Origin: Polyangiaceae bacterium
GTDB lineage: Bacteria > Myxococcota_A > Polyangia > Polyangiales > Polyangiaceae
DNA: 64,000 nucleotides
NCBI GenBank assembly: GCA_029261965.1
Contig: JAJDAH010000053.1
Coordinates: 1-64,000, forward strand
Reading direction: 5' to 3'
The notes beneath the pieces are model-generated. The model made no database searches, was not told the origin of the DNA, and saw nothing but the letters and a program-made list of their open reading frames with translations. Each line of letters begins with the position of its first letter. Position 1 is the stretch's first letter. Shown here one piece after another: positions 7,941-17,433 of the stretch. The position numbers and the translations under genes are program-made.

Positions 7941-8253
7941 GAACCAGCCGTCGATGAGCAAAACCCATGCCCGTCGCCGGCCAACCCACGAGGCAACTTT
8001 TCACCCGCCAAACCGCCATGCACTTTCCGTCACCATGACAGCGGGCCATCGCGCTCCGTCTCGGGTGGCACAGATCGGCCCACGCGCTCGCGAAGGACAG
8101 CGACGAGGCCGCGCTCCCACGACGACAATTCGTGACATAGTCCTTGCTGCTGGCTTACGCGAGGCTTGCGCGCCGGGCCGCGTTTCTTTCGCAGGGAGGG
8201 CATTCGTCACGCAGCGCAACACGCAACGCACGGATCGCTCGTCGCTCGTAGAC
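7941..8253. other. Intergenic stretch, nothing identified
   Basis: This 313-bp stretch separates the 3' end of the acyltransferase gene from the lipoprotein gene at 6783-7940, both on the minus strand. It should hold the lipoprotein promoter. I see no repeat, hairpin with a T-run, or coding frame with convincing composition. Confidence 0.5.
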
Positions 8254-9480
8254 TCAGGCGGGCGACGCCGCTCGGGCTCGCTCCTTCCAAACGCGACGAA
8301 TGAGTTCACTGGCTGGTCGCTCGACGAACGTGACCGACAGCCATCCCAGAAGCATCGATCCCGGCAGGACCCATGCTGCCATGACGAGAGCCGCTTCCTC
8401 CGCCGTGGCGTTCGGCAGATCGGCCTCGCGCCAGACGATTTGGATGATGATCATGTGCCAGAGGTAGACCCCGAAGGAGGTATCTCCCAGAAATTTGGCG
8501 AGACGGTTCGCATAGATCTTCCGTGCCCACGCGGGGCCGTACACCACTGCGATGACCAATACTGCGAACGCGGCTGCCGGCGTCATGTCGCGCTGAAGGT
8601 CGATCATGACACCGTTGTGAGTCGCGCGACTTGCCCCAGCGTAGTACACGTAGAACAAGATCAGGGCGCCACAGAAGAGGTGCAGGGCGAGGAGCCACCG
8701 CTTCGTTCGCTCCTTCGCGTTGCGAAGTCTCGGCCAAAGCAACACGTAGCACTTTGCCGCTACGCTCCCACAGGCGAACTGGAACAAGTAGGCGGGGAAT
8801 TGGTGCGCGAGGTGATGGGGCAGCTTCGCGTCCGGCGGCTCGAAACCCATCGCGGTGGAGATCTCGGGAAGGAACAAGCACCCCGCCTTCCACACGAGGG
8901 TGATGGCGAGGGCGAGGGCGAGGTAGCGGAACGGCCGGCGGAACAACAAGGCGGCGGCGAGCGGGAGCGTGATGTAGAAGAACTCCTCGATGGTGAGTGT
9001 CCAGGTCGAGCCGTTCATTCCGAAACCGATGTCGGTCTCTTCGAACAGGACTTTCTGAAGGAAGACGAAGTGGCCGAAGAGGAGCTCGATCCCGCGTTCT
9101 GACGCCGCGGGCGACGGCGTGTCGGGGTACACGAACGGCCAAATCAGAACGAGGATGATGAGCATCAGGTAGTAGCCGGGCACGATGCGCGCGATTCGAC
9201 GAACCGCGTACCAAGGGATGTCGCGGATAGTGCCGTCGCCGCGTGCCGCGGGAAGAAAGATCACGAAACCGCTGATCGCGAAGTAAACGGGCAGCGCGAT
9301 TTCACTACCGGCGATGATGGGGACGAAAGCGTCCCAGTGGGCCACCGCGGCCGGCGGGAGGATCCAGTAGATCGACGTGAAGATGTGGTGGAAGAGCACG
9401 GCGATCGTCAAATAGCCGCGCAGCCCGTCCATCTCCGGGATGAACGCGGGGGGCCGGTCTTCGCGAGCGGCATCAGTCAT
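8254..9480 (-). CDS. Acyltransferase 3 family membrane protein (OafA/YrhL type)
   Basis: A 408-residue polytopic protein. The family signature is at the N-terminus: EMDGLRGYLTIAVLFHHIF, containing the RGxxxxxVxxxH motif whose His is thought catalytic. About ten hydrophobic helices follow, with IDWxx-like positions replaced by STWTLTIEEFFYITLP, the usual acyltransferase-3 box. The family O-acylates extracellular sugars such as LPS, capsule or antibiotics. The start at 9480 overlaps the end of the upstream gene (9473) by 8 bp, so the two are translationally coupled. This suggests that both act on the same surface glycan. Confidence 0.9.
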   Translation of the reverse strand: MTDAAREDRPPAFIPEMDGLRGYLTIAVLFHHIFTSIYWILPPAAVAHWDAFVPIIAGSEIALPVYFAISGFVIFLPAARGDGTIRDIPWYAVRRIARIVPGYYLMLIILVLIWPFVYPDTPSPAASERGIELLFGHFVFLQKVLFEETDIGFGMNGSTWTLTIEEFFYITLPLAAALLFRRPFRYLALALAITLVWKAGCLFLPEISTAMGFEPPDAKLPHHLAHQFPAYLFQFACGSVAAKCYVLLWPRLRNAKERTKRWLLALHLFCGALILFYVYYAGASRATHNGVMIDLQRDMTPAAAFAVLVIAVVYGPAWARKIYANRLAKFLGDTSFGVYLWHMIIIQIVWREADLPNATAEEAALVMAAWVLPGSMLLGWLSVTFVERPASELIRRVWKERARAASPA

Positions 9481-14344: not shown

Positions 14345-14500
14345 TCACTCGAGTCCACACGGAGTTCGCGACCCAGCTACGTAGTCGAACATCCAAGAGC
14401 TGGGCGCGTGCAGTTGCATTCGGAGCGTTTTCTCGCTGAACCCAGCGTAGGCTTCATGCGGCGACGTCCCCCTTCTGCGCTGGCGAGCTCCGCGGACACA
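14345..14500 (-). mobile_element. Terminal segment of an insertion-sequence relic (copy A)
   Basis: The last 50 bp of a transposase frame and about 100 bp beyond it match, in inverted orientation, the segment at 21805-21960. Shared blocks include the reading-frame end PRSSPA..DVAA, the following GCAACTGCA and a GTAGCTGGG-like block near the end. Two diverged copies of the same 3' end show that a related element inserted at both sites and decayed. Confidence 0.6.
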
Positions 14501-14822
14501 CACTGCAGGCCACCTCTCGATTCCGCTCGAGCCGTCGCCTCCTGGCCTCCTTCCGCCGATCTGCGAGCTCATCAGGCACGGCTTCTCCACGACCGAAGTA
14601 CATCTCGTCGGGCGTTTGACCTTTGAACGCGCTGTGCGGCATGACGGCGTTGTGCGCGGCCACGTAGAATTCGACGAGCTGCTTCCTCGTCGCGAGGTCA
14701 TTCAGCTGGTGCAGGAACAACCTCTGATGCTTGAGAGAGCGCCACCACGCCTCGATCATGCTGTTGGAAAAGCTCACGTCGATCTGCGCCAGCAATCCTG
14801 CTCGCGAGAGCGTCTCCAAGAT
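14454..14822 (-). pseudogene. Transposase fragment, integrase-core C-terminus (IS3/IS481-like)
   Basis: The frame carries the last third of an rve-type transposase. It has ILETLSRAGL, then SFSNSMIEAWWRSLKHQRLF, where the Glu of the DDE triad sits in the SMIEAWWRSLK context. This is followed by EFYVAAHNAVMPHSAFKG and TPDEMYFG, the usual C-terminal YN-x-RPH-like and TPxExY motifs. The two catalytic Asp residues and the N-terminal HTH are missing. Upstream the frame continues only into unrelated sequence and then into the tRNA/tmRNA 3'-end fragment. It is a 5'-truncated relic. Confidence 0.75.
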
Positions 14823-14837
14823 GTCTCCACGACACAG

Positions 14838-14877
14838 GTCGACTCGGGTCGACTGGCGTCGACTCATGTCGAAGCCA
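14838..14877. repeat. 10-bp direct repeats (GTCGACT core), about four copies
   Basis: Three copies of GTCGACT followed by three variable bases lie at exact 10-bp spacing, and a fourth degenerate copy begins GTCGAAG. Spacing of about one helical turn puts the repeats on one face of the DNA, as in binding arrays. They lie between the transposase relic and the tRNA/tmRNA 3' end. A recombinase or transposase binding array is possible; chance is not excluded. Confidence 0.5.
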
Positions 14878-14960
14878 GCGACCAGTGGAAGCACCAAGAT
14901 CTCGAACACTTGGGACGGAAAGCGAGCGACATCGCCTAGTTGCAGATTGTCGTCCCCCAG

Positions 14961-14985
14961 AGTTCGATTCCCGGCGCCTCCACCA
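14961..14985 (+). other. tRNA or tmRNA 3'-end fragment, likely attachment-site remnant
   Basis: The segment has a T-loop (TTCGATT), the 3' half of a T-stem (CCCGG), a 7-nt acceptor strand (CGCCTCC), a discriminator A and an encoded CCA. The upstream sequence does not pair: the bases before the loop do not complement CCCGG, and no GGAGGCG or GGGGGCG acceptor strand occurs within 100 bp. It is therefore only the 3' end. The end fits either tRNA-Ser-like or ssrA (tmRNA) genes, both common integration targets. The T-run terminator at 15050 is still in place downstream. Confidence 0.7.
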
Positions 14986-15049
14986 TTGCAATGAATTCGA
15001 ACCTCCGTCCGCAACGCGGAGTAGGTTCAAAGCTCCAAATCGGCAAGAC

Positions 15050-15084
15050 ACCCGGAAGTAGGCACGACCTACCTCCGGGTTTTC
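15050..15084 (+). terminator. Intrinsic terminator downstream of the tRNA/tmRNA end
   Basis: A strong hairpin: ACCCGGA (15050-15056) pairs with TCCGGGT (15074-15080), and GTAGG (15058-15062) with CCTAC (15068-15072), around a 5-nt loop. It is followed directly by TTTCTTGTTT on the + strand. It lies 65 bp after the CCA end and was presumably the terminator of the original stable-RNA gene. Confidence 0.75.
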
Positions 15085-15095
15085 TTGTTTCAGGG

Positions 15096-15290
15096 TCACA
15101 GCGCCGGTGAGGCCTGCCCTTCGGCCTGAGCCAGAGCATCGGCGAGAGCCGGCGTCGCCCGACCCGACGCGACGAACTCCACGAAGTTGTGTACCTGCGT
15201 TTCGGCCCGGTTCATCTCGATCTTTTTGAGGCGAAGTTCTTCCGGGACGTGCTTGAACTGCTCTTTAACAGCGACAGATCGAGAACCCAC
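15096..15290 (-). pseudogene. Serine recombinase C-terminal fragment
   Basis: A 64-codon frame whose middle reads like the coiled region after the zinc-ribbon domain of large serine recombinases. It has HVPEELRLKKIEMNRAETQ, then NFVEFVASGRATPALADAL and AQAEGQ; family members usually have an equivalent NFVEFIxxGRGSxALxxAL. The catalytic domain and zinc ribbon are absent, and the frame stops early. It lies between the tRNA/tmRNA terminator and an unknown gene, as expected for the decayed integrase of an element at this site. It could be over-read, as the match is from memory of the family. Confidence 0.5.
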
Positions 15291-16432: not shown

Positions 16433-16960
16433 TCAGGCGGACTCGTGCTCAGCGAACAGCTTGCGCAGGCCGCGGCGTATCACGTCAGTCTCCGTGAGCT
16501 CGAGCTCTTTGGACAGGTGCCGGAGCAACCGGAGGTCTTCAGCTTTGAAGCGGAAAGACTTCAGACGCGATGGCACTCGATTCTTGCGCCCGACCCGCGG
16601 GAGCCATCCGTGAAGCGTCACGCCAGCAATGCCCCGAAAGTCATCGGGCACGAGATTTCGGCGAAGACGCCGAACTACCTCTTCGAGATCTTCCGGGAGA
16701 TCGGTTGCGTCCACGAACATCGCCGGCCGCTTCACGAGCAGCGCCGGCAAGAGCTCCAGCAGACGCGGCTCGACCTTCCCTGCCCAAAGTACTTCGTGCA
16801 CGTCCAGCGCCTCCTTGTTCGGAGGCACGCGCTCATTCGTCGTGAGCAGTCCCGCCCCGACGAACCGACCCATGACTCGGACGTATCGCGGGTCCCGCCT
16901 TCGACGACGGATTCCGGCGAGCTTCCGGCGAGCTCGGGCTTGCAGATCGGCTTCCGTCAT
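16433..16960 (-). CDS. Ribbon-helix-helix-type partner of nucleotidyltransferase, putative antitoxin or toxin
   Basis: A 175-residue protein. The last 45 residues (SFRFKAEDLRLLRHLSKELE, then TETDVIRRGLRKLF) look like a ribbon-helix-helix DNA-binding domain: one strand and two helices, normally found in antitoxins. The first 115 residues are basic then mixed alpha/beta (VRVMGRFVGAGLL, LWAGKVEPRLLELLPALLVK) and I cannot assign them. Its ATG overlaps the stop of the upstream gene by 4 bp (16957-16960), so it is translated together with the nucleotidyltransferase. The AT-rich palindrome at 17476 could be its operator. Antitoxin role is inference. Confidence 0.6.
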   Translation of the reverse strand: MTEADLQARARRKLAGIRRRRRDPRYVRVMGRFVGAGLLTTNERVPPNKEALDVHEVLWAGKVEPRLLELLPALLVKRPAMFVDATDLPEDLEEVVRRLRRNLVPDDFRGIAGVTLHGWLPRVGRKNRVPSRLKSFRFKAEDLRLLRHLSKELELTETDVIRRGLRKLFAEHESA

Positions 16961-17433
16961 ACGAACTGCTCCAGGTCGATGCCGTACTTCGTGGCGAGCT
17001 TCAGAAAACGCTCGCTGGCCCCTTGCGCAACATACTCCGTGATCAATGCTGCATTCTTCTTTGGTGCTTTCAGCGCCTTCGATAGCAACACCGCGTCGGG
17101 CTCTGCGAGGAGAACGCGGACGAAGGCACCGACAAACAGGTCCGCGTAGCGCGTTTCCCGTGGCATCCAGATCTCATGCCCAACCGGGTCGAGCTCATAC
17201 CCCTCTCGGCGGAGCAGGCGCTCGAGCTCCTTTCGCACGCCGTGCTCGAAGTTGCCCCGAACATCGACGTCCTTCGTGGCCGCCAGTGTGAGCGGGACTC
17301 CGCCTTCGATGAGAGCGAACTGCCCAAGAACCTGGATCTTGCAAGCGGGGATCGCCAACAAGCCTTCCTCGCGCGCCTCGACATTTCGGTCGACGATCCA
17401 CCGGTCCAGCCTCTCGGCGATTCCGCGCAGCAC
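16957..17433 (-). CDS. Nucleotidyltransferase-like protein of a two-gene toxin-antitoxin-like unit
   Basis: A 158-residue protein starting with GTG at 17433. The fold signature is IQVLGQFALIEGGVPLTLA, then TKDVDV, equivalent to the G-G-x...D-x-D core of MNT/DUF6036-type nucleotidyltransferases. It is followed by a helical part with FVGAFVRVLLAEPDAVLLSK. Proteins of this fold act as antitoxins or toxins by transferring nucleotides to RNA or proteins. It is first in a two-gene unit with the RHH protein (4-bp overlap). A possible TATACT -10 box lies about 33 bp upstream. Confidence 0.65.
   Translation of the reverse strand: MLRGIAERLDRWIVDRNVEAREEGLLAIPACKIQVLGQFALIEGGVPLTLAATKDVDVRGNFEHGVRKELERLLRREGYELDPVGHEIWMPRETRYADLFVGAFVRVLLAEPDAVLLSKALKAPKKNAALITEYVAQGASERFLKLATKYGIDLEQFV

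Follow-up and report, generated by a model that had tools for sequence, protein, structure and literature searches.

The closest described counterpart of the locus analysed here is found in Dehalococcoides, in which genomic islands at ssrA, the tmRNA gene, use the serine recombinase DsiB (McMurdie 2011, PMC3146451). According to the available extracts of that report, these islands form arrays, insert at the T-loop and carry 20-bp direct repeats of the ssrA 3' end; some of them have no integration module. The 3' end of the DsiB gene overlaps attL, with its stop codon outside the island, so that an ssrA island with an overlapping integrase gene is an architecture already in print. DsiB is described as homologous to CcrB and is accompanied by the smaller DsiA and by a parB/mom module; its likeness to the large serine recombinases (LSRs) of the present study is one of description. 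Serine recombinases at tRNA genes, represented by Mycobacterium AICEs (tRNA-Leu) and phage phiRSM1 (tRNA-Ser), were considered rare in a 2011 survey (PMC3218068). These elements resemble the present LSRs in the use of a tRNA gene by a serine recombinase and differ in phylum and in RNA gene; tmRNA use by serine recombinases is not mentioned in the available part of that survey. For Mycobacterium abscessus prophages, the reported tRNA/tmRNA sites go with tyrosine integrases in the accessible portion of the source (PMC10654092). Tyrosine-integrase islands, as presented in extracts of the Islander work (PMC4383910), also have a complete RNA gene at one end and a 3'-end fragment at the other, and form tandem arrays; the recombinase family is different.

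We analysed a stretch of 64,000 nucleotides from a Polyangiaceae bacterium, here called the window. It is one contig (G000:C429) of a 9.6-Mb draft genome that consists of 480 contigs, with 3.5% contamination. Judging by comparison with relatives, we consider it likely (probability of roughly 0.8) that a site near position 14,961 marks a junction, now decayed, within an array of LSR-integrated elements at the ssrA 3' end.

An ssrA 3' end without its gene

Positions 14961-14985 of the window (AGTTCGATTCCCGGCGCCTCCACCA) are the last 25 nt of ssrA, and the body of the gene is absent. The original prediction had placed an island edge here, comprising a bodiless stable-RNA 3' end, an intact terminator and a serine-recombinase tail, with the RNA body apparently replaced by a transposase relic. 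The features of the site are as follows.

14610-14768, minus strand: candidate transposase relic (integrase-core, rve_3-like), residues 83-135 of ORF 14454-15014(-)
14812-14961, plus strand: putative P (outer) arm of an integrative element, with its end at the ssrA core; similarity to C453 and G029
14837-14872, plus strand: direct repeats of about 10 bp, GTCGACTC(nn), in the P arm; read from the sequence
14961-14985, plus strand: ssrA 3'-end copy without body; pattern search and alignment
14963-14983, plus strand: att core TTCGATTCCCGGCGCCTCCAC, common to the sites, within the ssrA 3'-end copy
14963-15111, minus strand: LSR C-terminal frame from codon 503, antisense into and through the att core; alignment to G020
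14999-15028, no strand: imperfect inverted repeat GAACCTCC...GGAGtAGGTTC in the recombinase tail; pairing read from the sequence
15050-15090, plus strand: hairpin and T-rich tract, resembling a terminator when read in the direction of ssrA; antisense within recombinase coding sequence
15111-15114, no strand: frame-breaking gap; 152 bp (about 50 codons) of the G020 gene absent
15114-15269, minus strand: recombinase codons 400-451 (G020 numbering), 90% identity, frame open to 15290

No tRNA or tmRNA gene was found in the window by ARAGORN or by Rfam at the gathering threshold, and there was no sign of a former RNA body at the site. An Rfam or ARAGORN gene at the site of the 25-mer was rejected; the two weak Rfam matches are far under their gathering scores. 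The complete gene does exist in the genome: the sole above-cut-off tmRNA of the draft, with the tag ANDNAIALAA, is at C466:1952-2297(-) and has nearly the same end, 22 of the 25 nt of the window copy being one exact run in it. The final two nucleotides of the RNA end are CA in the window versus TG at C466. The end of this intact ssrA (L016, G000:C466, 1952-1975) reads CCTCCACTG, and CCA is not encoded.

A 26-nt pattern with up to three mismatches had four matches in the genome, compared to none for the reversed-pattern control: the window site, C453:1899, C453:11217 and ssrA itself on C466. We rejected tRNA-Ser as the source of the 25-mer, since ssrA is the only RNA gene among these four matches. 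The similarity between the window and C466 extends past the RNA end into the downstream DNA; window 14962-15113 is identical to the C466 ssrA 3' end and the DNA that follows it in 143 of 152 columns (94%, one gap), and no common exact run exceeds about 33 nt. This similarity begins no more than one base from the T-loop core edge of G020, L090, L081 and L083. No further core copy was detected on the window contig in pattern and core searches; therefore, the outline of either element cannot be drawn on C429. The ssrA gene (C466) and the other core copies (C429, C453) are on separate contigs, and given the 480 contigs and 3.5% contamination of the draft, any linkage of C429, C453 and C466 is putative. 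In 2-kb bins, the GC content of the window has its minimum (0.598) at about 14-16 kb.

The DNA to the left of the core

The DNA left of the core is best read as the arm of an element. Positions 14811-14986 (core included) are 81% identical to C453:11067-11243, and the P arm is also present in another genome, G029, with 71% identity and at about equal distance from the core; the arms of C453 and G029 likewise end at a core copy. The 150 bp before the core are element arm that precedes cores elsewhere, and a bodiless core is normal at the far end of an island, as in attR of G020 and in L090. Both points speak against the suggestion that a transposase relic had replaced the RNA body, and we rejected this suggestion. 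A match to a transposase does exist at about 14610-14768(-), as suggested, but it is weak (PF13683, E 4.4e-5, 23.6 bits) and below the Pfam cut-off of 26.5. The repeats of the P arm are a possible protein-binding array, a role suggested by their sequence. A module starting with CGTCTCCA(n)(n)ATGTCTCCACGAC or a close variant, followed by GACTC repeats of about 10 bp and having a sharp left edge, recurs in the window (14812-14872), in L017 (2886-2979 and 11067-11139), in L083 (3822) and in L055 (G015), at times without an ssrA core.

The broken recombinase gene to the right of the core

The DNA of the relative G020 that matches the right side of the core in the window (80% identical) is the 3' part of an intact LSR gene of 573 codons. 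The serine-recombinase tail that had been proposed is indeed present. What remains of it in the window is codons 400-451 plus a tail that starts at codon 503; the gene is not intact, and codons before 400 were not found adjoining the fragment. From codon 503 onward the alignment runs from 15111 downward to codon 571 at 14911 with 74% identity, although its part past the core (14911-14961) is probably a chance extension. In L079, positions 8418-8567 and 8109-8265 match either side of the gap, and 8266-8417 are unmatched. To judge from their sequences, the LSR genes at both the window and C466 are decayed.

At 15050-15080 there is a hairpin, ACCCGGAAGTAGG...CCTACCTCCGGGT, with TTTCTTGT after it (-19.5 kcal/mol, six T in the next eight positions). 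Its score of 14.6 compares to a maximum of 7.3 among 15 shuffles that kept base composition and nothing else. The predicted terminator next to the RNA end is therefore strong as a hairpin; however, it is not separate from the recombinase tail, because it sits antisense within the last codons of the recombinase gene. Since the G020 counterpart is the 3' part of the LSR gene and the earlier codons adjoin it, the "terminator" and the "recombinase tail" are one broken gene. The hairpin downstream of ssrA on C466 is weaker than that of the window relic (-8.9 versus -19.5 kcal/mol). Element-supplied ssrA terminators are reportedly a subject of Williams 2003, "Traffic at the tmRNA gene". That elements bring an ssrA terminator with them was ruled out here as a general rule: of 18 downstream regions, only 10 scored above every one of the 15 shuffles, and the 8 that failed include that of the intact ssrA on C466.

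We calculated pN/pS for the stretch from the LTG anchor to the core in nine sequences; C466, a fragment without this anchor, was left out. All 36 pairs, which are not independent, had values of 0.16-0.63. Values below 1 throughout indicate that this stretch behaves as constrained coding DNA. A mirror-image attP (GTTCGATTC...GAATTCGAAC) was considered and is not claimed, because coding constraint accounts for part of the symmetry and the tRNA-Met loci do not show it clearly. Farther along the window (16433-17433, minus strand), there are two adjoining small genes that by eye resemble a DNA-binding antitoxin and a nucleotidyltransferase-type partner; neither had a Pfam match.

An intact island and other copies of the core

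In G020, a complete ssrA and a displaced copy of its 3' end bound an island of 24.0 kb with the LSR inside. The ssrA core and the second core are 23,973 bp apart and make an exact 22-nt repeat; the second core forms the bodiless far end (attR). The LSR, of 573 aa, combines a Resolvase N-terminal, a Recombinase and a zinc-ribbon domain, and is identical to that of JAHBVX010000016.1, a Polyangiaceae MAG. Its gene is convergent with ssrA, and the frame runs into ssrA, so that the end of the protein depends on context: ...RHVPDD in the integrated state and ...EYRRSA in the predicted circle. No tyrosine integrase (PF00589, E <= 1e-5) was detected inside the island, the nearest on the contig being at 7.6-8.1 kb. 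For the three cargo genes that were compared with PADLOC models, the names given were DrmD/DrmA-like helicase, DrmMII-like methylase and Vsr; by eye, other large ORFs of the island look like more DISARM parts.

The order of parts differs among sites. It is ssrA - core - P' at C466, with P' (the integrase-side arm) shortened, and P - core - P' in the window. L090 has a bodiless core followed by the integrase arm with a full LSR, and in G168:C119 the first ~40 nt of P' are recognisable after a bodiless core; thus G168, like the window genome, contains ssrA - core - P' plus a bodiless core with P'. In L090 (8631-10571), the LSR frame runs through the core and has 101 codons from core to stop. The same LSR adjoins an ORF that by eye is replication-initiator-like; the contig was binned as Parvibaculum and may be misbinned.

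A four-gene Wadjet (JetA, JetB, JetC, JetD) was observed at 3123-9812 of L017 (G000:C453), between ssrA cores at 1902 and 11220, and these cores may therefore bound an anti-plasmid defence island. In other relatives, several ssrA cores occur at spacings of 0.1-18 kb, namely in L081 (G018; 3975 and 6351), L085 (G028; 14503, 14391 and 4847) and G115:C3 (1846774 and 1864606), and in some of them the downstream hairpin sequence is repeated as well, so several kinds of element appear to use the ssrA site. A tblastn comparison of nine proteins of the window, C466 and C453 to the other fetched loci, most of which have short flanks, gave no match.

Related recombinases at the 3' ends of RNA genes

A profile of five LSRs (E <= 1e-30) had matches in 40 of 183 genomes of the order. 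Thirty loci were returned, and all of them were examined; L095, L096 and L097 are apparently from the same genomes as L089, L092 and L091, and each was counted once. Under a strict test (an ARAGORN gene, convergent, with its 3' end at most 120 nt from the LSR stop), an RNA gene was found in 15 of the 30 loci, all convergent:

ssrA (3): L095, L098, L123
tRNA-Ala (2): L096, L097
tRNA-Met (9): L101, L102, L105, L106, L110, L111, L112, L116, L121
tRNA-Glu (1): L124

An extra ssrA case beyond these 15 is L094 (G109). The other 15 loci failed the strict test. Among them, part of a tRNA-Met or ssrA can be recognised by eye or in frame in L107, L117, L118 and L120, the contig ends too early in L109 and L114, L115 has the core only, and in L108 a tRNA-Met is located 681 nt past the LSR stop; in L099, L100, L103, L104, L113, L119 and L122, no RNA gene was seen near the LSR. 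With an estimated tRNA density of about one per 150-200 kb, chance adjacency is expected in well under 1% of loci, a figure derived from that density.

In 14 of the passing loci, the LSR stop falls within the RNA gene; the exception among the 15 is L097, in which the frame crosses the entire tRNA-Ala and ends 20 nt past it. The stop is 89-113 nt inside the RNA gene in the ssrA cases (G020, G109, G152 and G168). For tRNA-Met it is 42-43 nt inside in two of nine loci and 19-21 nt inside in the remaining seven, so that in these antisense tRNA sequence supplies the stop and the residues at the end of the protein (GCAGRI or close variants). In a tree of 26 LSRs, those at ssrA, those at tRNA-Ala and those with a core only fall in a single clade (100/100), in which the two targets are interleaved; L093 is inside this clade, yet no RNA gene is near it. 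The tRNA-Met LSRs do not make up an exclusive clade of their own. Most of them are in a group of 18 rows (94/92) that also includes loci without an RNA gene, and L112 (tRNA-Met) is outside of it, together with L124 (tRNA-Glu). No close relatives of these LSRs were found in phage and plasmid collections, where all matches were below 60% identity and the best rows listed had 25-33%.

Discussion

The homologies at the window site, the intact G020 island and the recurrence of related LSRs next to RNA genes are direct observations, and the similarity to the ssrA core and to the arms on either side agrees with the island edge proposed originally. The same end and terminator were expected elsewhere in the genome as attL and attR. 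A copy is present at C466 (94% over 152 bp), so the genome does contain an RNA gene with nearly this end, the absence of which would have counted against the prediction; however, the window and C466 do not make a simple attL/attR pair, because both carry the integrase-side arm, and a junction of two elements fits better. The window site is best read as the fossil of such a junction, with the order element arm, core, and integrase arm of the next element.

We infer that the LSR is the recombining enzyme and that tandem insertion gave rise to the array. The LSR gene of an element would sit at the ssrA-proximal end and point at ssrA, its last codons running over the att core, i.e., the final ~22 nt of ssrA. 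The enzyme would recombine attP with the ssrA 3' end inside this shared core. The ssrA gene would keep its body and the core, and would gain the integrase arm (P') as new downstream DNA, which may also bring a new terminator; a bodiless core would be left at the far end of the element (P - core), although the positions of the outer ends are themselves putative. Two elements in tandem would then have an inner junction P - core - P', as in 14812-15290. It should be noted that the window LSR is a fragment and that there is no sign that it acted at this site; the owner of the P arm need not be an LSR element.

Other origins of the junction were weighed. The core copy could come from a tyrosine-integrase island, the kind that usually occupies tRNA and tmRNA genes, with the serine-recombinase tail as an unrelated passenger. 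According to the Islander extracts (PMC4383910), tyrosine integrases are the catalysts of tDNA islands; moreover, no recombinase is assigned to the P arm, and many relatives have more cores with unrelated flanks, as if several kinds of element used the site. We nevertheless regard this origin as unlikely, since the LSR tail abuts the core in both the window and C466, other genomes have LSRs directly at ssrA or tRNA-Ala, and no PF00589 match (E <= 1e-5) is present on C429, C453 or C466 or in the G020 island. Less probable again is an assembly chimera or strain mixture, in which two unrelated stretches were joined at a common ssrA end. The exact runs between the window and C466 are no longer than about 33 nt, the unit of P arm and core recurs at C453 and in a different genome (G029), and a bodiless core followed by P' recurs in L090 and G168; these points outweigh the 480 contigs, the 3.5% contamination and the presence of the ssrA end four times in the assembly, once in an intact gene.

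The order P - core - P' is also that of attP, and could belong to an excised or plasmid-like circle instead of a chromosomal tandem; L090 is a 13.9-kb contig in that very order. The broken LSR of the window, the ordinary genes of the 64-kb contig C429 (LysR regulator, GST, M2 peptidase) and the lack of terminal overlap on L090 make a circle very improbable. We give the lowest credence to ordinary duplication or recombination, by which the window copy would be a displaced duplicate of the ssrA downstream region without site-specific integration. The 94% identity across 152 bp that include non-RNA sequence would be expected in that case, but the similarity to C466 sets in no more than one base away from the T-loop core edge and continues into the integrase gene.

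The array of LSR-integrated elements that we favour resembles the DsiB islands, in the extracts available (PMC3146451), in having a serine recombinase at ssrA, arrays and T-loop insertion; the G020 repeat is 22 nt long, compared to 20 bp in those islands, the presence of islands without an integration module is counted as a further likeness, and the overlap of the recombinase gene with attL is the same in G020, G109, G152 and G168. Unlike DsiB, the present LSRs have relatives at tRNA-Ala, tRNA-Met and tRNA-Glu. Here, the coding tail is under constraint as far as the core, whereas the overlapping part was found to be divergent in the DsiB study (PMC3146451). The cargo differs as well, with DISARM-like genes in G020 and Wadjet between two ssrA cores in the window genome. 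The literature matches listed, as far as their available text goes, do not include a Myxococcota LSR group of this kind, its use of tRNA-Ala, tRNA-Met or tRNA-Glu, or a stop codon within the core, and what was listed under Myxococcota was a single paper, on Streptococcus elements; the TIGER/Islander databases (PMC12424338, available in part) may already hold such enzyme/site pairs without comment.

We put forward, tentatively and as a possibility that we would not yet favour, that Myxococcota LSRs are specialised on tRNA and tmRNA 3' ends, with the gene ending inside its target. In most tRNA-Met loci, the RNA-derived core contains the final residues and the stop; among the ssrA LSRs, integrated, tandem and (predicted) circular forms have different C-termini, and this difference could signal to the enzyme whether it is integrated.

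A serine enzyme at a tmRNA-type target has seldom been described, with one close parallel published. The window holds only a fossil, yet it led to an intact example in G020. If the proposed reading is true, LSRs that act on several conserved RNA-gene ends and carry defence cargo would widen the known target range of these enzymes, and would offer natural enzyme/att pairs for myxobacteria.
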